From the IMG/VR virus record IMGVR_UViG_3300042691_022151, positions 1 to 39,791 of that record: a DNA stretch of 39,791 nucleotides; one strand, given 5' to 3'. The notes beneath the pieces are model-generated. The model ran no database searches. It was not told the origin of the DNA and worked only from the letters and a program-made list of their open reading frames with translations. A program made the position numbers and the translations under genes. This document shows, one piece after another, positions 11,874 through 27,461 of the stretch (its first letter is position 1; every line of letters starts with the position of its first letter). The stretch comes from a virus.

Positions 11874-12826
11874 TCCCGTCGCGCCAACAGGCTGCGCTTG
11901 GGCCATATGGGCCGCTGCTGAGCGCCGGCTTGTTCCCCACGCCGCAGCCGCAGACCTTGCCGAAGGCCGCGCCAGGAACGCCGCAGACGCCTTCCAGGCC
12001 TTCGGCAGCACCGATGCAGCCGGCGCCGGCTGCGCAGGCGCCAGCGCCCGCCGTAGCGCAAGACGCGCCGGGGGTGCAGTTCGGCGGCAGCTATGACGGC
12101 GGCGACAAGGGCGAGCCGTCGCAGGATCGCGGTTACGCGCAGGAGATCGGCAACTTCGGCACGCTCGGCGCGATTGGCGGCGGGCTGCTGGGCATGGGGC
12201 TCGGCGTGCCGGGTATCGGCTCGGCGCTTGGCGCGCTCGGCACGGCGGTGGACGTGTCGCAACTCAACGGGCTGCTTGGCGAAATGCAGATGCCGCAGGA
12301 GATCGACACGGGCCGCGCCATTGCGAACAGCATGAGCTTCGGCATGGCTGGGCAATCGGCAAAAGGCCAGTTTGGCGAGATCGCAACGCGCGGCATGGAT
12401 TTCGCCAACGATGGCTTCCTCGGGCTTGGCGAGGTGGCGCCCATGGATCAGATCACCGACGCAAGCGGGCTGGTGGCCGATCCGGGCAAGAGCGTCACTG
12501 ACGGCGGCATGAAGGACGGCTTCGGCGCTGACTTCGGCAAGGACTTCGGCGGCGACTTCGGCGGCTTCTCTGAGGGCGCCGTTGCCGGCGACAAGGGCGA
12601 CGCAGGCCCCGGCGCGGACGGAGGCGACAAGGGCTTCAAGGCCGGCGGCTACACGGGCGCGGGGCATGATGGCGAGGTAGATCCGAGCGAGCCGGCGGGC
12701 ACCGTGCATGAAGGCGAAGTCGTCATACCGGCGCATGCGGTGCAGCATTACGGGCTAGACCTACTGATGGGGCTGGTGTCGAAGCAGGTTCCGCGCTCGC
12801 GGCTGGCGGAATTGGCGCGCGACTGA
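11870..12826 (+). CDS. Glycine-rich virion protein with tape-measure-type C-terminal motif, 318 aa
   Basis: The GTG start at 11870 is coupled to the previous gene. After a Pro/Ala/Gln-rich leader (about 20-65) comes a glycine-rich hydrophobic patch (GTLGAIGGGLLGMGLGVPGI, about 97-116) that could insert in or cross a membrane, and a repetitive Gly/Asp/Phe region (FGADFGKDFGGDFGGF). The C-terminus AGTVHEGEVVIPAHAVQHYG is a motif often seen near the end of tape-measure and other injected or tail proteins. The likely role is an ejection or tail-internal protein; the exact role is unknown. The stop shares a base with the next ATG (TGATG). Confidence 0.6.
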   Translation: MIPSRQQAALGPYGPLLSAGLFPTPQPQTLPKAAPGTPQTPSRPSAAPMQPAPAAQAPAPAVAQDAPGVQFGGSYDGGDKGEPSQDRGYAQEIGNFGTLGAIGGGLLGMGLGVPGIGSALGALGTAVDVSQLNGLLGEMQMPQEIDTGRAIANSMSFGMAGQSAKGQFGEIATRGMDFANDGFLGLGEVAPMDQITDASGLVADPGKSVTDGGMKDGFGADFGKDFGGDFGGFSEGAVAGDKGDAGPGADGGDKGFKAGGYTGAGHDGEVDPSEPAGTVHEGEVVIPAHAVQHYGLDLLMGLVSKQVPRSRLAELARD

Positions 12827-14214
12827 TGCGCCTTCCCTTCGCCCTGCAATCCTACCGCCACCGCGATCTGCCGGTGTCGGCGCAGCGGCTCATCAACTGG
12901 ATGCCCGAGGCGCAGACGCCGGACGCCAAGGCGCGCGTGATTACCACGCCGACGCCGGGGTTGCGGCAGTTCACGCTGCTGCCGCAAGGGCCTGTGCGCG
13001 GCATGGAGGAGATGCGCGGCGTTCTCTATGTCGTGGCCGGCGATGGCGTTTACACGGTGGACGCATCCGGCACGCTGACGCTACTCGGCACGATTGCCGA
13101 AGGCGGGCCGGTGTCCATGGACGGCAACGGGACGCAGATGGTCATCGTGGCGCCGGAGACGCGCCGGGCTTGGGTGGCGACCACGACCACGCTGGCGCAG
13201 ATCACCGACACGGACTTCCTGCCTTGCACATCGGTCGCGTGCATTGATGGCTACCATGTGTTCACGCGAGCGGACAGCACGCAGTTCTTCATTTCCGCGA
13301 TCAATGACGCGACCAGTTACGACGCTCTCGACTTTGCCAGCGCCGAAGGCTCGCCGGATAACCTTGTTGTGGCGCGCCGCATCGGGCGCGAGCTTTGGCT
13401 GTTTGGCGAGACCTCGACCGAGATATGGAGCAACGTGGGCGCGGCTGACTTTCCGTTCCTGCGCGTCTCGGGCGCCTTTGTGGAGCGCGGCTGTGCGGCG
13501 CGCTTTAGCGTGGCGTCGCGACTGTCAACGCCGTTTTGGCTAGGCGATGATCGGGTGATTTACCGCGCGGACGGCTTCACGCCGGTTCGGATTTCCACGC
13601 ATGCCATCGAGCAGGCCATCGGCGGCTACACCACCGTCAGCGATGCGCGCGGCTGGGTCTATGAGCAGGAAGGCCACGTCTTCTACGTCCTGAGTTTTCC
13701 GACAGAGGGCGAAACCTGGGTTTATGACCTCGGCACGCAGCTTTGGCATGAGCGCGAAAGCGAAGGCTATGGCGTCTGGCGGTGCAATGTTGGCGGCAAT
13801 TTCTTCGGCGGCGCGCTGGCGGGCGATGCTGTGGATGGGCGCATCTATGTGATTGACCCGACGCTCTCGACCGAGGCCGGCGACCAGATCATTCGCGTAG
13901 CTACAGGCACGGCATCGCATGCCGAGGCGCGGCCTGTGTGGTTCACGCGGTTTGAGTTGGAAACCACGACCGGCAACGGCCTGGCAGTAGGGCAGGGGAG
14001 CGACCCACAGATTTTCCTGTCTTGGTCGGACGATGGCGGGCGGACGTGGAGCAACGAAAGCTGGCGCGGGCTTGGCGCTCAGGGCCGCTACACGACGCGA
14101 TGCGAGTGGCGCCGTCTCGGGCGGGCGCGGGATCGTGTGTTTCGCCTGCAAATGGCGGATCCGGTGCGGACATCGTTGATTGCCGTGAATATCGAGGCTG
14201 AGGCCGGCGAATGA
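12826..14214 (+). CDS. P22 gp10-like tail hub/packaged-DNA stabilisation protein, 462 aa
   Basis: Forms the hub or plug below the connector that keeps packaged DNA in. The sequence has the beta-propeller-like repeats of this family: SAQRLINWMPEAQTPDAKAR near the N-terminus, RGMEEMRGVLYVVAGDGVYT, and VVARRIGRELWLFGETSTEI followed by WSNVGAADFPF. The region near 380-440 (LSWSDDGGRTWSNESWRGLG, CEWRRLGRARDRVFRLQMAD) is a typical ending. The length matches P22 gp10 (about 470 aa). It supports the podovirus assignment with the P22-like portal. The ATG shares a base with the previous stop. Confidence 0.88.
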   Translation: MRLPFALQSYRHRDLPVSAQRLINWMPEAQTPDAKARVITTPTPGLRQFTLLPQGPVRGMEEMRGVLYVVAGDGVYTVDASGTLTLLGTIAEGGPVSMDGNGTQMVIVAPETRRAWVATTTTLAQITDTDFLPCTSVACIDGYHVFTRADSTQFFISAINDATSYDALDFASAEGSPDNLVVARRIGRELWLFGETSTEIWSNVGAADFPFLRVSGAFVERGCAARFSVASRLSTPFWLGDDRVIYRADGFTPVRISTHAIEQAIGGYTTVSDARGWVYEQEGHVFYVLSFPTEGETWVYDLGTQLWHERESEGYGVWRCNVGGNFFGGALAGDAVDGRIYVIDPTLSTEAGDQIIRVATGTASHAEARPVWFTRFELETTTGNGLAVGQGSDPQIFLSWSDDGGRTWSNESWRGLGAQGRYTTRCEWRRLGRARDRVFRLQMADPVRTSLIAVNIEAEAGE

Positions 14215-14585: not shown

Positions 14586-15229
14586 TGTGGGAATACATCC
14601 TGCCTGCGGCGGTGTCCGGCATCGGCGCGCTTGTCGGCTCCAATGCAAGCAAGGCGGCGACACAGGCGCAGGTGCAGGCAGCCGGCGAGTCCTCGGCGGT
14701 GCAGTCTCAGCTAGGCAACCGCGCGCTTGACCTGCAACAGCAGCAATTCGACCTCGGGCGATCCGACCTTGCGCCGTATCGCGAGGCGGGCACGGCGGCG
14801 CTCGGCACCTATGCCGGCGAGGTGGATCTGCCGTTTACCGAAACGCCGGGCTATCAAGCGCGGTTCAACGAGGGCGTGCGCGCCATCGATGCCGGGGCAG
14901 GGGCGCGCGGGCTTCTGGATAGCGGGGCGCGGCTCAAGGCGTTGACGCGCTTCGGCACGGACCAAGCGGAACAGGGCTACGACGCCTATGCGAACCGCCT
15001 GGCAGGGCTTGCGGGCGTCGGGCAGACGGCGACGCAGGCGGGCGTTGCGCAGGGGCAGGGCTTTGCTGGGCAGGCTTCGGGCACGCTCGGCAATCTGGCG
15101 CAGGGGCTTTCGCAGACGGCGCAGTTTGGCGGGCAGGCACAGGCGGCGGGCGCTGTTGGGCAGGCCAACGCGATCAACTCCGGGATCCAGAACGGAACGC
15201 TTCTCTATGCGCTCGGGATGGGGAGATAA
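14585..15229 (+). CDS. DNA ejection protein, P22 gp7-like, 214 aa
   Basis: Small internal virion protein, expected to be injected before DNA. An N-terminal hydrophobic segment (YILPAAVSGIGALVGSNASK) is followed by an Ala/Gln-rich helix and the family signature: YQARFNEGVRAIDAGAGARG, then LDSGARLKALTRFGTD and YANRLAGLAGVGQTAT. The C-terminus is repetitive Gly/Gln/Ala, likely disordered. The order of small ejection protein followed by two larger Ala/Gln-rich proteins parallels P22 genes 7, 20 and 16. The start ATG shares a base with the previous stop. Confidence 0.78.
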   Translation: MWEYILPAAVSGIGALVGSNASKAATQAQVQAAGESSAVQSQLGNRALDLQQQQFDLGRSDLAPYREAGTAALGTYAGEVDLPFTETPGYQARFNEGVRAIDAGAGARGLLDSGARLKALTRFGTDQAEQGYDAYANRLAGLAGVGQTATQAGVAQGQGFAGQASGTLGNLAQGLSQTAQFGGQAQAAGAVGQANAINSGIQNGTLLYALGMGR

Positions 15230-15233
15230 GCCC

Positions 15234-16469
15234 ATGTTTCCGCAGTTGCAGATCCAACAGCCGGACCTTGGCCGGGCGCTTGCTCAGGGGCATGCGATCC
15301 AGGGCAACCGCTTGCAGATGCTGGCGCAACAGCGCGAGCTTGACGACCAGACGGGCATCCGGGCGGCCTTGACGGAAGCCGGGCCGGGGGCGCTGGAAGG
15401 CGACGGCTCGCTTTTGGCCCGGCTCGCCGGCTATGGCCCGCGCGGCATCCAACTGGCGCAGACGATCCAGCAGCGCGGCGACCAGCAGCGCGGGCAGACG
15501 CGCGAGCAACTGCCGCTTCTCGCCGGCATGCTCGATGGCGTGACGCCTGAGAATTATCCCGAAGTGCGGGCGCGGGCGCTTGCGGCTGGTTTGTCGCCAT
15601 CGATCCTGCCTGAGCAGTTCGACCCGAACCGGGTTGCGGGCTTGCAGCGCGCGGCCTCGACGCTTCGTGATGCGCGCGCGGCCGATGCTGCCGCGTCCTT
15701 CAACGCGACCTTGCCGGGCCGGATGGCTGTGGCGCAGGCGGGGCGGACAAGCGTGAATGTGCGCTTGCCGCCGATGGAGAACAGCTTTGCGCAGCGCACG
15801 GGCACGGATCTAGCCGAGGAAGCCGGGCAGCTTGGCGCGGCCGGGCGCCGTAGCGCGGAGACTCTGCGCATGGTGGACCGCTTCGAACAGGGGTTGCAGA
15901 ACTTCGACACGGGCGCCGCCGCTGCCGCGCGGCTTACGGTCGGGCAGGTGGCGCAGCAACTCGGCATCCCGGACAGCGTGTTGCCGCGCGGCTTGAACCG
16001 TGACGCGGTGGCGTCTGCCGAGGATATGCGCGCCCTGACTTCGCAGATGCTCGCCGGCATGATCGGGCCGGGCGGGTTCCCGGCGCAGAACTTCAGCAAC
16101 GCGGACCGCGAGATGTTGGAGCGCGCGCTGCCCAACATCGCCAACACGCCGGGCGGCAACCAGATCCTCCTGCAAGCCGCGAGGGCAGGGGCGCAGCGTA
16201 ACCTTGAGGTGGCGCAGGCATGGCGCCAGTGGCAGCAGCAGAACGGCGTTACGGCGGATAGCTACTTGCGGTTTACGCGCGAGCGGCTGCCGCAGATCAC
16301 CGAGCGCGATGTTCTGACGCCGTTGATGGCGAACAGGCCGCAGCAGCAAGGCGCGCCGGGCAGCGTCGCCATTCCGGGGGCAAACGGGCTGCGCGCATCG
16401 CCGCCCACGGCGCCGGGCGTAACGCATCGGTTTAACCCGGCCACAGGCCGCATTGAGCCGGTGCGCTGA
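15234..16469 (+). CDS. DNA ejection protein (P22 gp20-position), 411 aa
   Basis: ATG at 15234 has GGGGAG about 9 bases upstream. The protein is Ala/Gln/Arg-rich and mostly helical (DLGRALAQGHAIQGNRLQML, AGLQRAASTLRDARAADAAA), with a more ordered core at about 200-340. No enzymatic motif is visible. Placed between the gp7-like protein and the 692-aa protein, it takes the position of P22 gp20, an injected protein. The family call is from composition and order. It could also contribute to an ejection tunnel through the periplasm. Confidence 0.65.
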   Translation: MFPQLQIQQPDLGRALAQGHAIQGNRLQMLAQQRELDDQTGIRAALTEAGPGALEGDGSLLARLAGYGPRGIQLAQTIQQRGDQQRGQTREQLPLLAGMLDGVTPENYPEVRARALAAGLSPSILPEQFDPNRVAGLQRAASTLRDARAADAAASFNATLPGRMAVAQAGRTSVNVRLPPMENSFAQRTGTDLAEEAGQLGAAGRRSAETLRMVDRFEQGLQNFDTGAAAAARLTVGQVAQQLGIPDSVLPRGLNRDAVASAEDMRALTSQMLAGMIGPGGFPAQNFSNADREMLERALPNIANTPGGNQILLQAARAGAQRNLEVAQAWRQWQQQNGVTADSYLRFTRERLPQITERDVLTPLMANRPQQQGAPGSVAIPGANGLRASPPTAPGVTHRFNPATGRIEPVR

Positions 16470-16470
16470 C

Positions 16471-18549
16471 ATGGCAATCGTGCAAATGCCGGACGGCAGC
16501 GTTGTGGAGTTTCCGGAAGGCACCGCGCCGGAAGTCATGGAGCGCGCGCTGCGCGGGTTCCGGGCGCCTGCGGAGCAAATGCCGGGCGCATGGGCGCCAA
16601 CGGCGGCGGTGCGCGGCATTGGCGATCTTGTCGGGCTGCCGCGCGATCTCATGGATCTTCGCGACCAAGCCATCAATGCGGGCGTCGGCTATCTGGAAGA
16701 TCGCGGCGTGCCTGGCGTCCGGCGCGTGGCCGAGGGCGTGCGCGCTGTGGAGCGGCTGATGCCGGGCATGAGCGGGCGCGGCCCGACTGGTGAGCAGGTA
16801 TCCGGCGCCATCATGGACGCGACGGGCATGGAGCCGGTGGAGCCGGAGACGACCGCCGGACGCATCGGCGCCGAGGCGCTGCGGTTTGCGGCGGGCTCGG
16901 CGGTGGGCGGGTCTATGCCTGCCGTGGCGCGCAATGCGCTTGCCGGGGCTGTGGCTGGGACGGCCTCCGGAGGCGCTGGGGAGGCCACACGCGGCAGTGC
17001 GGCAGAACCCTTTGCGCGTGCCGCCGGGGCTCTGGCGCCCGCTGCCGTGGGCGGCGCGGCCCGTGTGGTGCGTGGCAATCCGGTGCGTGATGCCGCAGCG
17101 GCTCTCGACGGCGTAACGCCGCAGCAGATGGAGCAGGCGCAGGCGCTCATGCGGCAGGCCGAGCAACTCGGCTCGCCTATCACCTTGCCCGAAGCCGTGC
17201 AGCAGGTGGCAGGCCCAAACCGCAACCTGCGCAACGTGCAGGATCTTGCGCAGAACAGCATCGGCGGGCAACGGGTAATGAACCCGTTCTTGGATCGCCG
17301 GGACGCTGGCGCGCGGCAGGCAGCCGAGCAATTCGCGGAGCAGTTTGCACCGCAAGGGCGCGGCGCCGCCATGATCCCGGCAGGCATCCAAGAGGCCGCA
17401 CAAGCCGAGGTGGCGGCAGCCTATCGCGCGCGATCCGAAGCCGTGGCGCCGCTGTATGCGCAGGCGGCGCAGGATGCCGCACAGCCAGGCGTGCGAGGCG
17501 CTGTGCGAGGCATCGTATTCGCCGGCATGACCCGGCTGGAACAGGCGGCGGCGCGCGATCAGTCCGGCATCTTGCGGCCGCAATTTGAACAGATGGCCGA
17601 GCGGTTCCGCGCGCCGTTCGACCCCGCCAATCCGCAGCCGATGGATTGGGACAGCATCAACGACGCTCGCCGCTACATTCGCGACGTGATGCGCGCGCAG
17701 GGGCAGCCGGGCCAGCCGGTGGTTGACCGCAAGGTTGCGGGCGAGGCGCTGCGAGTCATCGAGCAAATGACGGACCAGCTAAAGCGCGCCGTGCCGTCCC
17801 TTGCGGCGGCGGATCGTGAGTATATCCGCCTGACGCAAGAGGTGGTGGCACCAGTCGAGCGCGGCATCATCGGTCGGGTTTCCGAGACCGACAACGCGCA
17901 GTCTCAGCGCGCGCTGCTGTTTCCGCGCTCGCCTATGGGTGGCGCCGTGCCGACCACGCCGGAAGCGGCGGGCGAGGCTTTCGGGCGGCTGGCAGGGCCG
18001 CAGGCCACGCGGGCGCGCGTGGGGACCGGCGACCTCGACAACGCGCGCGGGCTGTTGGGCGCCGAGCTTCGCGCCCGGCTAGACGAGGCGCTGGCGCTGC
18101 GCGCTTCCGGCCCGACCGAGCGCGCGGGCGCTGCCTCCATTGCGCGGATCGCCCCGACGCAGGGCCGCGAAGACACCATCATGGCGTCCTTTCGCGCGCT
18201 GCCAGGTGGCGACCAAGCGGCCGAGGGCTTCGCGCGCATGATGGACGTGTTGCATGCGCAGACCTTTGCGCCGGCTCGCGGCAGCCAGACGGCAGCCCGC
18301 ACAGAAGCCGCGCAGCGCGCGACGGGTGGCGTCAGGGCCGCAACCAATCCGGTGCGCGAGGGTCAACGCTTTATCGAGGATTGGTCCCGCAACACCAATA
18401 CGCAGGCGCTGGCCGAGGCGCTCACCACGCCACAGGGCTTCAATATGCTGCGCGCGCTAGCCGGGCTCGATGACGTGGCAGCGCGCGAGCGGCTGGTTTC
18501 GCAGATCCTCAGTTACGACCGCTCGCGGCGAGCCGCAGAGCCGCGATAG
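16471..18549 (+). CDS. Large internal/ejection protein (P22 gp16-position), 692 aa
   Basis: The N-terminus MAIVQMPDGSVVEFPEGTAP (residues 1-20) is a small beta module found at the start of many phage internal virion proteins. Glycine/alanine-rich hydrophobic stretches around 140-205 could act at a membrane. The remaining 400 residues are long helices, e.g. near QQMEQAQALMRQAEQLGSPI and RYIRDVMRAQGQPGQPVVDR. This is typical of the largest ejected protein in P22-like particles. No lysozyme or transglycosylase motif was found. Its 3' end overlaps a convergent reverse-strand gene by 41 bases. Confidence 0.68.
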   Translation: MAIVQMPDGSVVEFPEGTAPEVMERALRGFRAPAEQMPGAWAPTAAVRGIGDLVGLPRDLMDLRDQAINAGVGYLEDRGVPGVRRVAEGVRAVERLMPGMSGRGPTGEQVSGAIMDATGMEPVEPETTAGRIGAEALRFAAGSAVGGSMPAVARNALAGAVAGTASGGAGEATRGSAAEPFARAAGALAPAAVGGAARVVRGNPVRDAAAALDGVTPQQMEQAQALMRQAEQLGSPITLPEAVQQVAGPNRNLRNVQDLAQNSIGGQRVMNPFLDRRDAGARQAAEQFAEQFAPQGRGAAMIPAGIQEAAQAEVAAAYRARSEAVAPLYAQAAQDAAQPGVRGAVRGIVFAGMTRLEQAAARDQSGILRPQFEQMAERFRAPFDPANPQPMDWDSINDARRYIRDVMRAQGQPGQPVVDRKVAGEALRVIEQMTDQLKRAVPSLAAADREYIRLTQEVVAPVERGIIGRVSETDNAQSQRALLFPRSPMGGAVPTTPEAAGEAFGRLAGPQATRARVGTGDLDNARGLLGAELRARLDEALALRASGPTERAGAASIARIAPTQGREDTIMASFRALPGGDQAAEGFARMMDVLHAQTFAPARGSQTAARTEAAQRATGGVRAATNPVREGQRFIEDWSRNTNTQALAEALTTPQGFNMLRALAGLDDVAARERLVSQILSYDRSRRAAEPR

Positions 18550-18721
18550 CCGCGCGCGTCAGCCAAGCGCCACAGAAGGCAAATAGCCAAGCCGTCCCGC
18601 CGCCCGCAATTGCCGCCGCGAGGTGGTTATTGTTGGCGTATAGCACCGATAGGTTGGCGACATAAACGCCGACCGGGATCGAGAACCACAGCCAAACCGT
18701 GAAGATCCGGTCGCGCCTCAC
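18509..18721 (-). CDS. Small two-TM membrane protein (reverse-strand pair), 70 aa
   Basis: The GTG start at 18721 overlaps the stop of the upstream reverse-strand lipoprotein gene (GTGA), so they form a two-gene unit. Two hydrophobic spans are clear: IFTVWLWFSIPVGVYVANLS and AAAIAGGGTAWLFAFCGAWL, joined by a short polar turn (YANNNH). Positive residues cluster at both ends (MRRDR; RLAASGRN), predicting a cytoplasmic-in hairpin. The gene is opposite to all surrounding structural genes. It may be a superinfection-exclusion or host-modifying moron protein, or a lysis accessory. It does not look like an Rz inner-membrane spanin because it lacks a periplasmic coiled coil. Confidence 0.6.
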   Translation of the reverse strand: MRRDRIFTVWLWFSIPVGVYVANLSVLYANNNHLAAAIAGGGTAWLFAFCGAWLTRAAIAALRLAASGRN

Positions 18722-18828
18722 CGCGCCGCCGTAGCGGCAGAGATCGCCGGATAGAGGTTCGACGCCACAACCACGGCCTCACAGGCCGGCAGCGCCGCCA
18801 GCAGGCACAAGCCAAGGACCACTCGCAT
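18718..18828 (-). CDS. Small lipoprotein, 36 aa (reverse-strand pair)
   Basis: The sequence begins MRVVLGLCLLAALPACEAVV: a basic start, a hydrophobic core and a lipobox ending at Cys16 (LPAC), so a mature lipoprotein of about 21 residues is predicted. It is followed by the two-TM gene with a GTGA overlap. Its ATG (18828-18826) interlocks with the ATG of the forward tail-fibre gene (18827-18829) in one CATG. No strong promoter or ribosome binding site is visible upstream on this strand. Lipid-anchored small proteins are known as phage superinfection-exclusion factors or Rz1-type outer spanins. Which applies here is not decided. Confidence 0.55.
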   Translation of the reverse strand: MRVVLGLCLLAALPACEAVVVASNLYPAISAATAAR

Positions 18829-20041
18829 GACCACGCGCTTTTTTCTTTCTCGGCAACAGGTGTTTGATGACGCGGGCAACCCGTCATCCGGCGCGCTTCT
18901 CGATTTTTACGAAACCGGGACCAGCACGCCGAAGGCCACCTATAGCGATGCTGCCCTGACGGTTGCAAACGCTAATCCGGTGGTGGCCGATAGCGCGGGC
19001 CGGTTTGGGGATATCTTCCTTGACACGGGCGACTACAAGGCGAGGCTGCGGACCTCGGCCGGAACTGTCGTGTGGACTGCTGACCCGGTGCAGGGCGACA
19101 CCTCGACCGCCGCAGCCTCCGTGCCGACTGGGCGCAATCTCATCATCAACGGCGCCTTCGCGGTCAATCAGCGCGGAGCGACCAGCGTGGCGGATGACGC
19201 CTATTGCCTGGATCGGTGGTATGTCCTGGCGCAGTCGGGCAACGTCACCGTGGCACAGCAGACGGTGCAGGAGTTTGCGCAGCCAAACAACATCCGGCTC
19301 ACGCAGCCGGATTCCTCGGCCAAGCGCATCGGCCTGGCGCAGATTGTGGAGGCTGCGGATTCGCGCGGCTACCGCAACACCTTCCTGACCCTTTCGGCGC
19401 GCATCCGGTGCAGCGTCGCGCAGCCGATCCGCTATGCCGTGCTGGCGTGGGACGGCACGGCGGACAGCGTGACATCTGACGTTGTGCTGGATTGGACCAG
19501 CACATCCTATTCAGCCGGCGGGTTCTTCCTCGCGTCGAACCTGTCCGGCATCGCCACGGGCACAATCACGCCGAGCGCGGGCGTCTGGACGGACATCACG
19601 CCGCTAGAGTTCGATATGCCGAACGCCGGAAACAATATCATCGTGATGTTCTGGACCTCTGGCACGCTGGCGCAGAACGCCACGCTAGACATCGGGCTTG
19701 TGCAGCTTGAGCCAGGGCAGGAAGCCAACGACTTCGTGCGGCCGAGCATTGCCGAGACGCTCGCGCAGTGTCAGCGGTATTTCTACCAGACCGGCGCGGC
19801 GCGTCTGCTTGCCGCTTATGCCGGCGGCGCAAACTCCACAACGTTGCAAGCCTTGGAGTTCCCCGTTGCGATGCGTGTGGCGCCGACTGCCAGCGCGACA
19901 TGGGCAAGCGGAACGAACAATTCATCGCAAAGCGTAACCAACATTGCGCCGGAAGGGTGCCAGCTTTCGCTCATCAGCATAACGAGCGGCGACTTCTCTG
20001 TCACGTATTCGGCCGGAAACACTTTCTCCGCGGAGATCTAA
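18827..20041 (+). CDS. Tail fibre with N-terminal anchor domain, 404 aa
   Basis: The first 90 residues (FDDAGNPSSGALLDFYETGT, STPKATYSDAALT, NPVVADSAGRFGDIF, TVVWTADPVQGDT) are the widespread phage fibre head-binding domain. From about residue 105, NLIINGAFAVNQRG followed by DRWYVLAQSGNVTV is a carbohydrate-binding jelly-roll opening, continuing to about 310. The C-terminal 90 residues (AQCQRYFYQTGAARLL and onward) form a small beta domain often seen at fibre ends. AAGGA at 18814-18818 is 8 bases from the ATG. It probably attaches spikes or binds the receptor. The next gene, a beta-helix spike, may dock onto it. Confidence 0.8.
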   Translation: MTTRFFLSRQQVFDDAGNPSSGALLDFYETGTSTPKATYSDAALTVANANPVVADSAGRFGDIFLDTGDYKARLRTSAGTVVWTADPVQGDTSTAAASVPTGRNLIINGAFAVNQRGATSVADDAYCLDRWYVLAQSGNVTVAQQTVQEFAQPNNIRLTQPDSSAKRIGLAQIVEAADSRGYRNTFLTLSARIRCSVAQPIRYAVLAWDGTADSVTSDVVLDWTSTSYSAGGFFLASNLSGIATGTITPSAGVWTDITPLEFDMPNAGNNIIVMFWTSGTLAQNATLDIGLVQLEPGQEANDFVRPSIAETLAQCQRYFYQTGAARLLAAYAGGANSTTLQALEFPVAMRVAPTASATWASGTNNSSQSVTNIAPEGCQLSLISITSGDFSVTYSAGNTFSAEI

Positions 20042-20044
20042 GCC

Positions 20045-22309
20045 ATGAGCGGCGCCATCGTCGGGGATGTCATCAGTCTAGGCGCGGTGAACAGCGTCAA
20101 TGGCATAACTGGATCCGCGATCACGCTCGGCGCGGCGGACATCGCAGGCATCACCTCGCATGGCGGCGTGCGGGTCATGGACTATGTGCCGGCTGCGCTC
20201 AAGGCGGGCGTGCTGGCGGGTTCGACTTCGCTTACATCCTACCTCTCGGCCGCCATCGAGGCCGCCATCGCGGCGGGCGGCGGGCGTGTGATCCTGCCGG
20301 CCTCGCAATCGCTGACGATGGCGACCGCCTATTCGCGCACCGGGATCACGGTTCCTGTCGTGATTGAGGGCGCTGGCGCGAAGATCACGCGCATTCGGTG
20401 GAGTGCCGGCACCGATCCGGGTGGCAATATGATCGATCTGCGCGGCGATGCGATTGCCGGCGCGCTTGAAATCACTTTCCCGGTTACGAGCAACACATTC
20501 ACCACCGAAAGGCCGAGCGCCTCGATCACGGTTGATGCGGAGCCGGGTGACCGCATCGTGACCTTTTCGAGTGTGACCGACTTCGCGCCTGGTCGCTTGG
20601 TGCGGTTGAAGGCGCAGAGGCTCTGGCAGCAGGATCCCCGGAACAGCATCTTCTACGGCGAGTTGTTGAAGGTGAAGGCTGTTGTCGGCTCGACCGTCGA
20701 GTTCTTCACGCCGCTGGCCTTCGGCTACAAGGCGGGAAACCTCGCGGCCGGCACGGCGCAGGCCGGCTCCTCCAATACTGTGACGCTGGCCGCCGGCGCG
20801 AGCCTGGACCCGCTGCTGGTCCAGGGCTGCCGCATTCGCATCGTCAGCGGCACGGGCGCGGGGCAGCAACGCTACATCACGGCCTACGACAACGCGACCA
20901 AGGTCGCGACCATCGAGACGGGCACGAGCTACCCGCAGCCCGCCTGGTCGCCCGTGCCTGACGCGACCAGCGGCTATGAAATCGACGGAATCGCCTATGC
21001 CACCGCCGCGCGCCCCGCGCCGGGCTTGACCTTGCGGGGCTTCACGCTGGATGGCGCGGGCATCGTCAATCGCGCGCTCGTGCTGGACTGGTGCGATGGC
21101 GAGCGTGTCGAGGATGTGGCCCTGCAAAACTTCGACCTTGCGGGGCTCTATTCATTCCGGGGCTATGAGCCCCGCTGGATCGACATCGCGGTGCGCGAGA
21201 TCCCGGGCGTGACGACTTCTCTCGGGTATGGAACGGCTTTCAACGAATGCCGCGACGCCATCGTGACGGGGCTGCGGGTCCATAACTGCCGGCGCGGCAC
21301 GGATGCCCTTGGCTCGATCCCGACGGTGCGCGCGACCATTGGCCCGTTCATGGTAAGCCAGGGCGAAACGGCTGCCGACGGAACCGCATGGTCAGCGGAT
21401 CGGCGGCCGACGGGCCTCGGCTCGCACTCGCAAGCCTATGAATACACCTGGCACACCGGCAGCATCGATGGCGTTGCCACAGGCGTCATCGTGCGAGGCG
21501 TGAAATGCACTGTGCGCGATGTGGACGTGAGCGGCGATGTCTCAGAGGCTATCTTTGCGCTATGGGCAACCGATCTGACAATCGACAATGTGCGGCTGCT
21601 TGGCCGCTCCGGGCCTGGCATCAACCCGCCGACCGCTGGCCTGCGATACGGGCGGCGGCATCTGGCCTACATTTCCACCGGCTCTTGCCAAGGCACGATG
21701 ACGATCCGCAACTGCTACGCGGACGAGTTGCCATCCGCAGCTATCTACCTCGCCAATGCGGTTGATGCACCGATCACGACTTTCAAGATGCGCGCCCGTG
21801 GCAGCGAGTTTGAGTTTGTCACAGACAGCAACGCCTTTTTGCTTGCTGGCGACAACGTGCCAGACCCGGCTGAGTGGGAGTTTTCGGGCAATATAGGCCG
21901 CGTTATTCGTGGGGCGGGCACTTATGTTGGCGCGAATCTGCGCGGCAACTCGACGCAATCGACGTGGAACAAAATCAGCGACACGTCATGGTGGGTCAAG
22001 ATCCTCGACGATGGCTTCGTGTCGTTCCCTGTTGTCAGCGCGCGGCAGGATCAAGTTATGGTTTCGCTTCATAATTCCACAGCGTTCCTTAACCCTCAAT
22101 TTTTCGGCGTTGTGCGGGAAGGCAGCGCCAGCACGGTGTTTGACGTTGCGCCGGCTGCGGCCATTTCGCGCGCGGTGGCGCCGTTCACCGGCACAACCAA
22201 CGCGGACGGCTCCACTTACATCGGCTTCGCGGCGGATCGATTGTGGGTTGAAAACCGCAGCGGCGCGACGCTGCTGCTTACGGTGACGCTAGTAGGGGGC
22301 GCGGGTTGA
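20045..22309 (+). CDS. Tailspike, pectate-lyase-like beta-helix, 754 aa
   Basis: A short strand-rich N-terminus (VISLGAVNSVNGITGSAITL) leads into a right-handed beta-helix beginning with a pectate-lyase-like entry (AIEAAIAAGGGRVILPAS, GITVPVVIEGAGAKITRIRW). An inserted module at about 240-315 (GSSNTVTLAAGASLDPLLVQ; SGTGAGQQRYITAYDNATKV) is a known virion domain. The helix continues through GLTLRGFTLDGAGIVNRALV, RVEDVALQNFDLAG and TLTIDNVRLLGRSG-like rungs to about 620, and a C-terminal cap follows. Probable surface polysaccharide depolymerase or binder. The active site is not assignable by eye. The stop shares a base with the next ATG. Confidence 0.82.
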   Translation: MSGAIVGDVISLGAVNSVNGITGSAITLGAADIAGITSHGGVRVMDYVPAALKAGVLAGSTSLTSYLSAAIEAAIAAGGGRVILPASQSLTMATAYSRTGITVPVVIEGAGAKITRIRWSAGTDPGGNMIDLRGDAIAGALEITFPVTSNTFTTERPSASITVDAEPGDRIVTFSSVTDFAPGRLVRLKAQRLWQQDPRNSIFYGELLKVKAVVGSTVEFFTPLAFGYKAGNLAAGTAQAGSSNTVTLAAGASLDPLLVQGCRIRIVSGTGAGQQRYITAYDNATKVATIETGTSYPQPAWSPVPDATSGYEIDGIAYATAARPAPGLTLRGFTLDGAGIVNRALVLDWCDGERVEDVALQNFDLAGLYSFRGYEPRWIDIAVREIPGVTTSLGYGTAFNECRDAIVTGLRVHNCRRGTDALGSIPTVRATIGPFMVSQGETAADGTAWSADRRPTGLGSHSQAYEYTWHTGSIDGVATGVIVRGVKCTVRDVDVSGDVSEAIFALWATDLTIDNVRLLGRSGPGINPPTAGLRYGRRHLAYISTGSCQGTMTIRNCYADELPSAAIYLANAVDAPITTFKMRARGSEFEFVTDSNAFLLAGDNVPDPAEWEFSGNIGRVIRGAGTYVGANLRGNSTQSTWNKISDTSWWVKILDDGFVSFPVVSARQDQVMVSLHNSTAFLNPQFFGVVREGSASTVFDVAPAAAISRAVAPFTGTTNADGSTYIGFAADRLWVENRSGATLLLTVTLVGGAG

Positions 22310-24160: not shown

Positions 24161-24331
24161 ATGTCCTACATCATCACCAAACTGCGGGAGCCTAGCTCCT
24201 GGGCTGGCATCGCCGCGCTATTCGCCGCGCTCGGCTGGCAACTACCGGCTGAGTATTACGGCGCCATCACGCAGCTTGGCATTGCCGCCGCCGGCCTCGC
24301 GGCCATCATCCTGAACGAGCGCGAGCCGTGA
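24161..24331 (+). CDS. Putative holin, 56 aa
   Basis: A small membrane protein starting MSYIITKLREPSSWAGIAAL with two weakly to moderately hydrophobic spans (SWAGIAALFAALGWQLPAEY; ITQLGIAAAGLAAIIL) and a charged C-terminus NEREP. The ribosome binding site is strong (AGGAGG 5-6 bases before the ATG). Its stop overlaps the endolysin GTG start (GTGA), the classical holin-endolysin arrangement. Similar short proteins with this layout are annotated as holins in phages. It is too small for three spans, so class II or III. Confidence 0.75.
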   Translation: MSYIITKLREPSSWAGIAALFAALGWQLPAEYYGAITQLGIAAAGLAAIILNEREP

Positions 24332-24834
24332 CCTGGCGCGCGCTCTTTGCGCGTCTGCTTGGCGCGGGGCGGCCAGAGGCGCCGCTAGAGCCGCCCGCGC
24401 CTGCTATCGGCGGCGTCCCTGTCTCGACGGTGGGGGAGGCCGCAGAGCCTCCTCCGCACCGATCCGCCATGCTGACGGCCCGCGACCGCAAGCGCTTGGC
24501 CGGCGTGCATCCTGACCTGGTGCGCGTGGTCGAGCGCGCGCGCCGCGATGTGGAATTCTACGTTGCCGAGGGTGTGCGCAGCATCGAGCGCCAGCGCGAG
24601 TTGGTGGCGAAGGGTGTGTCGAAGACGATGGACAGCCGGCACATCACCGGCCATGCCGTTGACCTCTACCCGGTGTCGGATGTGCCTGTGCCGGCGATGA
24701 CGGCGCGCGACCTGGCGCCGGTGGTGAGCGCGATGAAACGCGCCGCGCATGCTGAATGTGTGCCGATGGTGCATGGTGCGGATTGGGGGTGGGACCACCC
24801 TCACCACGAATTGGCCCGCTCGCGGTATCCGTAA
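24328..24834 (+). CDS. Endolysin, M15 D,D-/L,D-peptidase
   Basis: Cleaves peptidoglycan peptides at lysis. The zinc site is visible: SRHITGHAVDL (H105 and D112) and the C-terminal DHPHHEL (around residues 156-161). The lead-in ARDRKRLAGVHPDLVRVVER (51-70) is typical of phage M15_4 endolysins. The first 47 residues are an extra Pro/Ala-rich stretch. If ATG 24469 were used, the enzyme would begin just before the catalytic domain, but the GTG at 24328 overlapping the holin stop fits coupling. No signal peptide is seen, so release through the holin is expected. Confidence 0.9.
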   Translation: MTWRALFARLLGAGRPEAPLEPPAPAIGGVPVSTVGEAAEPPPHRSAMLTARDRKRLAGVHPDLVRVVERARRDVEFYVAEGVRSIERQRELVAKGVSKTMDSRHITGHAVDLYPVSDVPVPAMTARDLAPVVSAMKRAAHAECVPMVHGADWGWDHPHHELARSRYP

Positions 24835-25493: not shown

Positions 25494-26102
25494 ATGACAG
25501 ACCCTAAGCCCATCCTGATCGGCTACGCGCGGGTCAGCACATCCGACCAGGATCTAGCCCTCCAGCGCGACGCGCTGCTGGCTGCCGGGGTCGATGCCTC
25601 GCGCATCTACTCCGAGACGGCGAGCGGTGCGCGGGGCACCATCCGCCCGGCCATGGCCGCGTCCTTCAAGGCGCTGCGGAAGGGCGATACGTTGGTGGTG
25701 TGGAAGCTCGATCGGCTCGGCCGGTCCCTTGAGGAGCTTGTGCAGACCGTCCGGCGGATCGAGGCCAAGGGCGCGAACCTCCGCATCCTCACCATGGCCA
25801 TCGACACCAGCACCCCAGGCGGGCGCTTCATTTTCCACATCTTCGCCGCCCTGGCCGAGTTCGAGCGCGAGCTGATCGTGGAGCGCACGAACGCCGGGCT
25901 GGCGGCGGCGCGGGCTCGGGGGCGCGTGGGCGGCCGGGCTCGGGTGATCCCTGACGAGGACGTGGCCCGCGCCATCGACATGCTTAAGGCCGGCACCGAT
26001 CCGCGCGCCGTGGCCAAGGCCCTCGGGGTCAGCAAGAGCACCATCTACAACCGGATCGCGAAGGAATGGGCTTCGGCCCTGGCAGAAGGAACCGCCGAAT
26101 GA
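25494..26102 (+). CDS. Serine recombinase (resolvase/invertase type), 202 aa
   Basis: Full-length small serine recombinase. The catalytic serine is S15 in YARVSTSDQD, with R74/R77 in WKLDRLGRSLEEL. The GGRFIFHIFAALAEFERELI segment is the long E-helix. A C-terminal HTH (VAKALGVSKSTIYNRI, about 173-188) binds DNA. The length fits resolvase/invertase, not large integrases. It may resolve multimers of a circular prophage, invert DNA, or regulate. No inverted repeat pair flanking the fibre genes was noticed. It is the first gene of the 25494-28071 cassette, and its stop overlaps the next ATG. Confidence 0.92.
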   Translation: MTDPKPILIGYARVSTSDQDLALQRDALLAAGVDASRIYSETASGARGTIRPAMAASFKALRKGDTLVVWKLDRLGRSLEELVQTVRRIEAKGANLRILTMAIDTSTPGGRFIFHIFAALAEFERELIVERTNAGLAAARARGRVGGRARVIPDEDVARAIDMLKAGTDPRAVAKALGVSKSTIYNRIAKEWASALAEGTAE

Positions 26103-26359: not shown

Positions 26360-26463
26360 CAGACGAGTCCAAGACGACCCTGCGCGAAGAAGTCGCTTAT
26401 CTGCTCTATTTCATTGGCGCTCTCGGTTTTTGGGCTGGCTTGGGCTGGCTTGTTGCCACCTGA
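26356..26463 (+). CDS. Single-span membrane microprotein, 35 aa
   Basis: Starts at the ATG overlapping the previous stop (26356-26359) and ends sharing a base with the radical SAM start (TGATG at 26461-26465). After a charged head (MTDESKTTLREEVAY) there is one strong transmembrane segment (LLYFIGALGFWAGLGWLVAT), so a small inner-membrane protein is predicted with the N-terminus likely cytoplasmic. Coupling on both sides argues it is translated. Function unknown. Confidence 0.55.
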   Translation: MTDESKTTLREEVAYLLYFIGALGFWAGLGWLVAT

Positions 26464-27461
26464 TGCGTATCCGCCTGACCCAGCTAGACGGCACGCTGCC
26501 CAACCTTGCGCTTATGAAGCTCGGGCACTGGCACCGCGCGCAGGGCCATGAGGTCGTGCTGACGCGACAGGCGGAGCGCGACCTGCTGGAAGGCGATTAT
26601 GATCGCGTCTATGGCTCTGCCATCTTCAAGTTCTCGGCCGCCAAGCTGGCCCGGTTCATCGCCGCTTGGCCGGATGCGATCATCGGCGGCACCGGCACCA
26701 GCAGCGCCGCGACGGTAGAGGGCGTGCTGGGGTGCGCGTCCTACGATGGCCTCGATTACAGCCTCTATCCGACCTATGAGCCATCGCTGGGGTTCACGCA
26801 GCGCGGGTGCCGCCTGTCCTGCAAATTCTGCGTTGTGCCGGGCAAGGAGGGTAAAGCGCGCAGCGTCAACACGATTGCCGAGATATGGCGTGGTCCAGGC
26901 CACGCGAAGAAGCTGCACCTGCTGGACAACGACTTCTTCGGCCAGCCCGAACCCGAGTGGCGCGCCCGCATTTCTGAAATCCGGGAAGGCGGGTTCAAGG
27001 TATGCCTCAACCAAGGCATCAACGTTCGCCACATTACGCCGGAAGCGGCTGCGGCGATCGCCAGCGTCGAATACCGGGATGATGCCTTCAAAGAGCGGCG
27101 GCTCTACACCGCGTGGGACAACCTAAAGGACGAACCGATCTTTATGCGCGGGATCGACATGTTGGAGGCGGCCGGCGTCCCGCCGAAGCACGTCATGGCC
27201 TACATGCTGGTCGGCTACGACAAGAACGAAACCTGGGACCGCCTGTGGCATCGGTTCAATGCTATGGTCGCACGCGGCATCAAGCCTTACCCGATGGTCT
27301 ATGACTGCCGGGCTACCGACGCAGCGCGGTATCGGGGGCTAAAGCAATTTCAGCGGTGGGTGGTGACTGGTCTCTATCGAGCCGTGCCGTTCAGCGATTA
27401 CGACGCGGGCCGCCGCCGAGCGCGCGCGCATGAGGATCAGCAGATGGAGTTCGCAGCATGA
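26463..27461 (+). CDS. Radical SAM protein, 332 aa
   Basis: A radical S-adenosylmethionine enzyme. The [4Fe-4S] cluster motif is CRLSCKFC (C116, C120, C123; CX3CX2C) after the typical strand YEPSLGFTQRG. The N-terminal 90 residues (LALMKLGHWHRAQGHEVVLT; AIIGGTGTSSAATVEGVL) resemble a Rossmann/B12-binding-like leader, seen in many radical SAM proteins such as methylthiotransferase relatives, without a visible DxHxxG cobalamin motif. A GlnGlyIle strand (CLNQGINVRHIT) and HVMAYMLVGYDKNETW fit the later barrel. Substrate is unknown, perhaps tRNA, DNA or protein modification. It is the largest gene of the cassette, coupled to its neighbours. Confidence 0.85.
   Translation: MRIRLTQLDGTLPNLALMKLGHWHRAQGHEVVLTRQAERDLLEGDYDRVYGSAIFKFSAAKLARFIAAWPDAIIGGTGTSSAATVEGVLGCASYDGLDYSLYPTYEPSLGFTQRGCRLSCKFCVVPGKEGKARSVNTIAEIWRGPGHAKKLHLLDNDFFGQPEPEWRARISEIREGGFKVCLNQGINVRHITPEAAAAIASVEYRDDAFKERRLYTAWDNLKDEPIFMRGIDMLEAAGVPPKHVMAYMLVGYDKNETWDRLWHRFNAMVARGIKPYPMVYDCRATDAARYRGLKQFQRWVVTGLYRAVPFSDYDAGRRRARAHEDQQMEFAA

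Follow-up and report, generated by a model that had tools for sequence, protein, structure and literature searches.

Why would a P22-type phage carry two very small genes that read against its late operon, placed between the last gene in the ejection-protein position and the tail fibre gene, and what might they do there? The DNA analysed (the window) is the 39,791-nt stretch of IMG/VR record IMGVR_UViG_3300042691_022151, which carries a P22-type module with terminase, portal, and coat families, Hc3, a tail fibre, and a tailspike. A first-pass annotation had described the two reverse genes, encoding a lipoprotein and a two-span membrane protein, as a hidden moron in the structural operon. The features that bear on this are the following:

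12826..14214, plus strand, P22 gp10-type packaged-DNA stabilisation protein (head closure Hc3; phrog_578, 1.2e-126)
14988-16469, large gene without a family match, between Hc3 and the slot; ejection protein by order
16453..18549, plus strand, gene for a 698-aa protein that borders the slot upstream; by synteny in the place of an ejection-protein gene (P22 gene 16)
18509..18549, both strands, tail-to-tail overlap of the 70-aa gene and the upstream structural gene (ORF coordinates)
18509..18721, minus strand, gene for a 70-aa two-span membrane protein (ORF; GTG start 18721, stop 18509)
18718..18721, minus strand, GTGA stop/start overlap of the lipoprotein gene and the 70-aa gene (sequence)
18718..18828, minus strand, gene for a 36-aa putative lipoprotein (ORF and translation; ATG start 18828)
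18826..18829, both strands, CATG that contains the start codons of both the reverse lipoprotein gene and the forward fibre gene (sequence)
18827..20041, plus strand, tail fibre (PHROG tail fibre, 7.7e-37) bordering the slot on the right; its N-terminal adaptor (NANPVVAD motif) is widespread
20045..22309, plus strand, tailspike (phrog_14558 tail spike, 1.3e-20)
24161..24834, plus strand, lysis cassette of the endolysin gene (24328-24834) and, overlapping it, a hydrophobic holin-like ORF of 56 aa

The window Hc3 has relatives in 43 phage records and marks a P22-type tail module. Because tblastn found no relatives of the 698-aa protein, which also had no PHROG or Pfam match, its putative ejection role is assigned from position; that of the gene at 14988-16469 is likewise assigned by order and not by homology. 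The closest relative (L111, 59% in Hc3) ends before the slot. Further downstream, at 26430-27461, the window encodes a Radical-SAM-domain protein (phrog_9298, 9e-42).

The two reverse ORFs are well supported as real genes. ORF checking and translation confirmed both as first annotated, together with the GTGA overlap, which suggests translational coupling, and the single CATG in which the lipoprotein start (minus-strand ATG, 18828-18826) and the fibre start (ATG, 18827-18829) have two bases in common. At its other end, the 70-aa ORF extends 41 bp into the plus-strand gene 16453-18549, covering the 3' end of that gene. Codon-position GC in the two reverse ORFs (0.72/0.56/0.81 and 0.61/0.56/0.76) has the pattern of the genome's genes, from which the forward frames of the gap depart. 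When the 460-bp region was dinucleotide-shuffled 20,000 times, a lipoprotein-like ORF and, behind it, an overlapping two-span ORF arose once, which places the pair beyond chance, with the figure to be taken as indicative since the search criteria were set after the pair had been seen; on both strands of the 39.8-kb window, this arrangement occurs a single time.

A competing reading takes the ORFs for chance reverse frames in a GC-rich spacer that only regulates the fibre gene. It can point to the lack of any sequence homologue for either protein: the 70-aa protein had none in viral contigs, genome contigs, or phages, no Pfam match, and no PHROG match below E 0.08, and the 36-aa protein had neither a PHROG nor a Pfam match. 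It can also point to the region upstream of the lipoprotein gene, where no sigma-70-like promoter signal rose above chance; the orientation of the pair opposite to the late operon is itself clear. The shuffles and the codon-position GC speak against this reading, and related phages, described below, do so as well.

The search for a clear terminator of the reverse pair was negative, as was that for RNA families and tRNAs. A perfect 9-bp inverted repeat (18484-18492/18519-18527) lies in the 3' end of the upstream gene and overlaps the reverse gene's end; it folds stably (z -2.4) and lacks a T-run.

The 36-aa protein, translated from the minus-strand ATG as MRVVLGLCLLAALPAC-EAVVVASNLYPAISAATAAR, has a short basic start, a hydrophobic core, and a signal (MRVVLGLCLLAALPA) with lipobox LPAC and Cys16, which would give a 21-aa mature peptide with Glu at +2. 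The lipobox and Cys16 on which the lipoprotein annotation was based are thus present, but the lipobox is imperfect in having Pro at -2, a residue that the usual pattern (PROSITE PS51257) presumably does not list at that position, so lipidation is likely rather than certain. The 70-aa protein does have the two spans ascribed to it. Hydropathy places two hydrophobic segments at about residues 6 and 33, and AlphaFold, run on the single 70-aa sequence, predicts two helices (3-30 and 32-67, mean pLDDT 77). Both of its tails are positively charged, and both ends are therefore probably inside (N-in/C-in).

This hairpin brings a lysis function into consideration. Class II holins (e.g., S21 and T7 gp17.5) have two spans, both ends in the cytoplasm, a cationic tail, and about 70 aa, and the 70-aa protein shares the two spans, the inside ends (a topology that follows from charge), and the cationic C-terminus. 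The pair might then be a lysis accessory with its own reverse promoter, with the hairpin serving as a class II holin and the lipoprotein as an o-spanin-like or other small lysis peptide. The 70-aa protein fits in size, distribution of charge, and predicted hairpin, the window contains no other pattern-fitting lipoprotein ORF and hence no obvious o-spanin elsewhere, and the second protein of a similar pair in another phage (L016) has a sub-threshold match to Phage_holin_10 (E 0.15). We nevertheless consider a lysis accessory unlikely. A holin-like ORF already overlaps the endolysin gene at 24161-24834, whereas the reverse pair is more than 5 kb from the endolysin and antisense to the late operon, with which lysis genes normally run; the hairpin lacks the kind of periplasmic domain with which an i-spanin crosses the periplasm; L016 has another lipoprotein ORF, on the plus strand downstream of its fibre gene; and slot genes are missing from many relatives. 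A two-component spanin was rejected, as the hairpin has a very short loop and no long periplasmic coiled-coil domain.

The position of the pair corresponds to a known site of variation. P22-like phages carry a variable insert between genes 16 and 9, the "ant moron," which comprises mnt, arc, ant, and sieA in P22 and other genes in other phages (PMC2629481). By gene order and families, the window slot sits between the last ejection-position gene and the fibre gene of a P22-type module. It resembles the P22 insert (immI region plus sieA) in occupying the same slot of such a module, in having a small membrane protein gene, and in its variable, non-essential-looking content, and it differs in lacking mnt, arc, and ant, in holding just two tiny genes, and in showing no homology.

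To see how this slot is filled elsewhere, we used relatives of the fibre N-terminus, which was found at 92 loci in viral contigs. The best 80 of these 92, with named phages added, gave 69 non-redundant loci. Short and empty slots are the majority (37 of the 69 loci have slots of <120 bp). Among the 32 slots of at least 120 bp, 17 have a reverse membrane ORF of at least 40 aa, compared with 2.5 expected from shuffles, a count that is conservative in that ORFs of family A and of phage Pam1 extend into the upstream gene and went mostly uncounted, and generous in that a few (e.g., L048, L059, and L073) come from long, uncertain gaps. Forward membrane ORFs of the same minimum length were found in 5 of these slots, with 0.8 expected from shuffles. 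Related phages differ in whether the slot is filled and in what it contains, and the slot genes are diverse and mutually unrelated. Two slot families could be compared internally, with dN/dS of 0.18-0.55 in family A (six loci) and 0.18-0.38 in family B (four loci); both are under purifying selection.

Three further phages repeat the order of an exported protein or lipoprotein gene followed by a small membrane protein gene, all on the reverse strand. In L016, a 74-aa lipoprotein gene is followed, with an ATGA overlap, by a gene for a two-span protein of 65 aa; in L068, the lipoprotein also has 74 aa, and a one-span protein of 37 aa follows with a TTGA overlap; and phage CBW1004C-Prop1 has a 117-aa exported protein (signal peptide without lipobox) and then a two-span protein of 89 aa. 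The slot proteins of the window and L016 do not align, so what they have in common is an architecture, and we do not claim homology. The L016 lipoprotein matched only itself in viral contigs and nothing in phages, and that of L068 had no homologue in phages. Lipoproteins occur in just a minority of filled slots, and the recurrent component is the small membrane protein. With 17 slots filled against 2.5 expected, selection acting on slot families, and the same gene order in three other phages, we regard chance frames in a regulatory spacer as quite improbable.

Given the published ant-moron slot and the over-representation of reverse membrane ORFs in fibre-related phages, the status of the reverse pair as an independently oriented moron in a P22-type ant-moron slot is well supported, in agreement with the first-pass annotation. 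Not all P22-type tails follow this pattern, because relatives selected by Hc3 (with a five-member Hc3 alignment) did not consistently have a reverse membrane gene in the slot. Among fibre relatives in genome contigs, a two-span reverse ORF was found in one MAG (L099, 4646-4939), and the loci of Gluconacetobacter, Zavarzinia, Reyranella, and others showed no clear pair. Three family-A phages have, some 4 kb upstream of the fibre gene, a further lipoprotein gene in reverse orientation (minus strand; L022:792-1031, L027:675-878, and L044:669-872), and the encoded proteins have similar C-terminal ends with a Cys pair.

A counterpart closer to P22 in gene content is found in Acetobacter phage phiAX1, whose slot, the one that holds sieA in P22, contains Arc-type repressors and a KilA-N gene as in P22 immI, making it an Arc/KilA-N version of the ant moron in an alphaproteobacterial phage. 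The slot also encodes an unannotated 90-aa multi-span protein (L107:16217-16489, minus strand), the ORF of which overlaps the ends of two genes, the one in the gene-16 position and, by 4 bp, PhiAX1_530. PhiAX1 is treated as temperate in PMC8566455. Unannotated reverse membrane ORFs also lie in the slots of Rhodoferax phage P26218 (L083:3810-3971, minus strand) and Pseudanabaena phage Pam1 (L086:3721-3984, minus strand). These findings place the P22 ant-moron slot in a much broader range of phages, and phiAX1, Pam1, and P26218 illustrate that tiny antisense membrane genes in it can escape annotation.

Filled slots are modestly associated with integrase genes. Hc3 was present in 16 of 16 slot-filled viral records tested and in 24 of 26 slot-empty ones, so the two groups are the same kind of phage. 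A tyrosine integrase scored above the cut-off in 11 of 22 slot-filled and 5 of 26 slot-empty records (P = 0.034), and for viral contigs of at least 25 kb the counts were 8 of 13 and 3 of 16 (P = 0.027). As the records are fragments, the relatives are non-independent, and one slot-empty locus (L024) has no upstream sequence, we use this association as supporting evidence only. The window, which may not be a complete record, has no detectable tyrosine integrase and no clearly recognisable repressor of lysogeny; a small serine recombinase of the invertase/resolvase type is encoded at 25494-26102.

Because of its position and membrane location, superinfection exclusion is our best guess for the function of the pair. 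We hold with moderate confidence that it is an ant-moron-slot moron that most likely encodes such a device; we infer not only exclusion and its target but also expression, lipidation, and topology. The first-pass annotation had proposed superinfection exclusion or receptor masking, which is plausible from position (the sieA slot and T5 llp) and from the integrase link and has no homology behind it. It had also seen the pair as fitting beside the fibre gene, whose product presumably binds the receptor. The pair does adjoin the fibre gene, but its neighbour in the ejection position is at least as informative.

The two published precedents differ in mechanism. P22 SieA acts on ejection proteins; it has 162-164 aa and three spans and acts alone (PMC10883804). 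Like SieA, the window hairpin is a multi-span membrane protein encoded between ejection genes and a tailspike gene, but at 70 aa it has less than half the length of SieA and two spans instead of three, and its gene is coupled to that of a lipoprotein. Membership of the SieA family was rejected for the 70-aa protein, which lacks the FxRYPxEAxxFNK motif, the third span, and the length of ~160 aa. In T5-like phages, the gene llp for a receptor-blocking lipoprotein lies beside the receptor-binding gene oad, and T5 and BF23 fill the same role with unrelated Llp sequences (PMC4728585). Here too, the gene of a small putative lipoprotein adjoins that of a putative receptor-binding protein; unlike T5 and BF23, the window phage is a podovirus, and its 21-aa mature peptide is coupled to a membrane protein. 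We favour an injection block of the SieA kind over receptor masking, because the upstream neighbour is an ejection-position gene and SieA acts on ejection proteins, and because the recurrent slot component is a small membrane protein, with lipoproteins in the minority.

Under exclusion, the short lipoprotein would be made first and coupled to the hairpin, which would sit in the inner membrane like P22 SieA and interfere when an incoming phage of the same type assembles its ejection-protein conduit or docks it at the inner membrane. The lipoprotein, with Glu at +2, would by the E. coli rule be anchored in the outer membrane on its inward side and work where the injection path begins, or it might shield the receptor as T5 Llp does. 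A place between ejection and fibre genes would keep the pair linked to the genes that set its specificity. If the two proteins work jointly, a coupled lipoprotein and hairpin that exclude at both membranes would represent a new arrangement; we know of no prior description of two-component superinfection exclusion of this two-membrane kind. More tentatively, the slot in P22-type phages of diverse hosts could be a locus devoted to exclusion, where unrelated two-gene cassettes (an outer-membrane lipoprotein or exported protein plus an inner-membrane hairpin) arose repeatedly as two-membrane blocks against the injection conduit; we think this doubtful but possible.

The pair could instead be a lysogenic-conversion or host-takeover moron with another role, such as envelope stress, toxin-antitoxin, or nutrient or surface change. 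Slot genes are diverse and unrelated, and ant morons bear genes of several functions (PMC2629481), as such a moron would lead one to expect; the recurrent membrane or envelope location beside ejection and fibre genes is what exclusion predicts, and we give another role a rather low probability. The pair also suggests a simple rule for finding candidate superinfection-exclusion genes, which is to check the interval from the last ejection gene to the fibre gene for ORFs on the reverse strand.

Some slots also contain forward hairpins with T-runs that resemble intrinsic terminators, just before the fibre or spike gene. They occur in 3 of 18 slot-filled viral loci and 0 of 25 slot-empty ones, as well as in CBW1004C-Prop1, Pam1, and PBR31; the window has none. 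All lie within 160 bp upstream of the fibre or spike gene (L016:4961-4985, L050, L064, L109:15343-15371, L086:3901-3929, and L085). Where such a hairpin precedes the fibre gene, that gene may have a promoter of its own or need antitermination.
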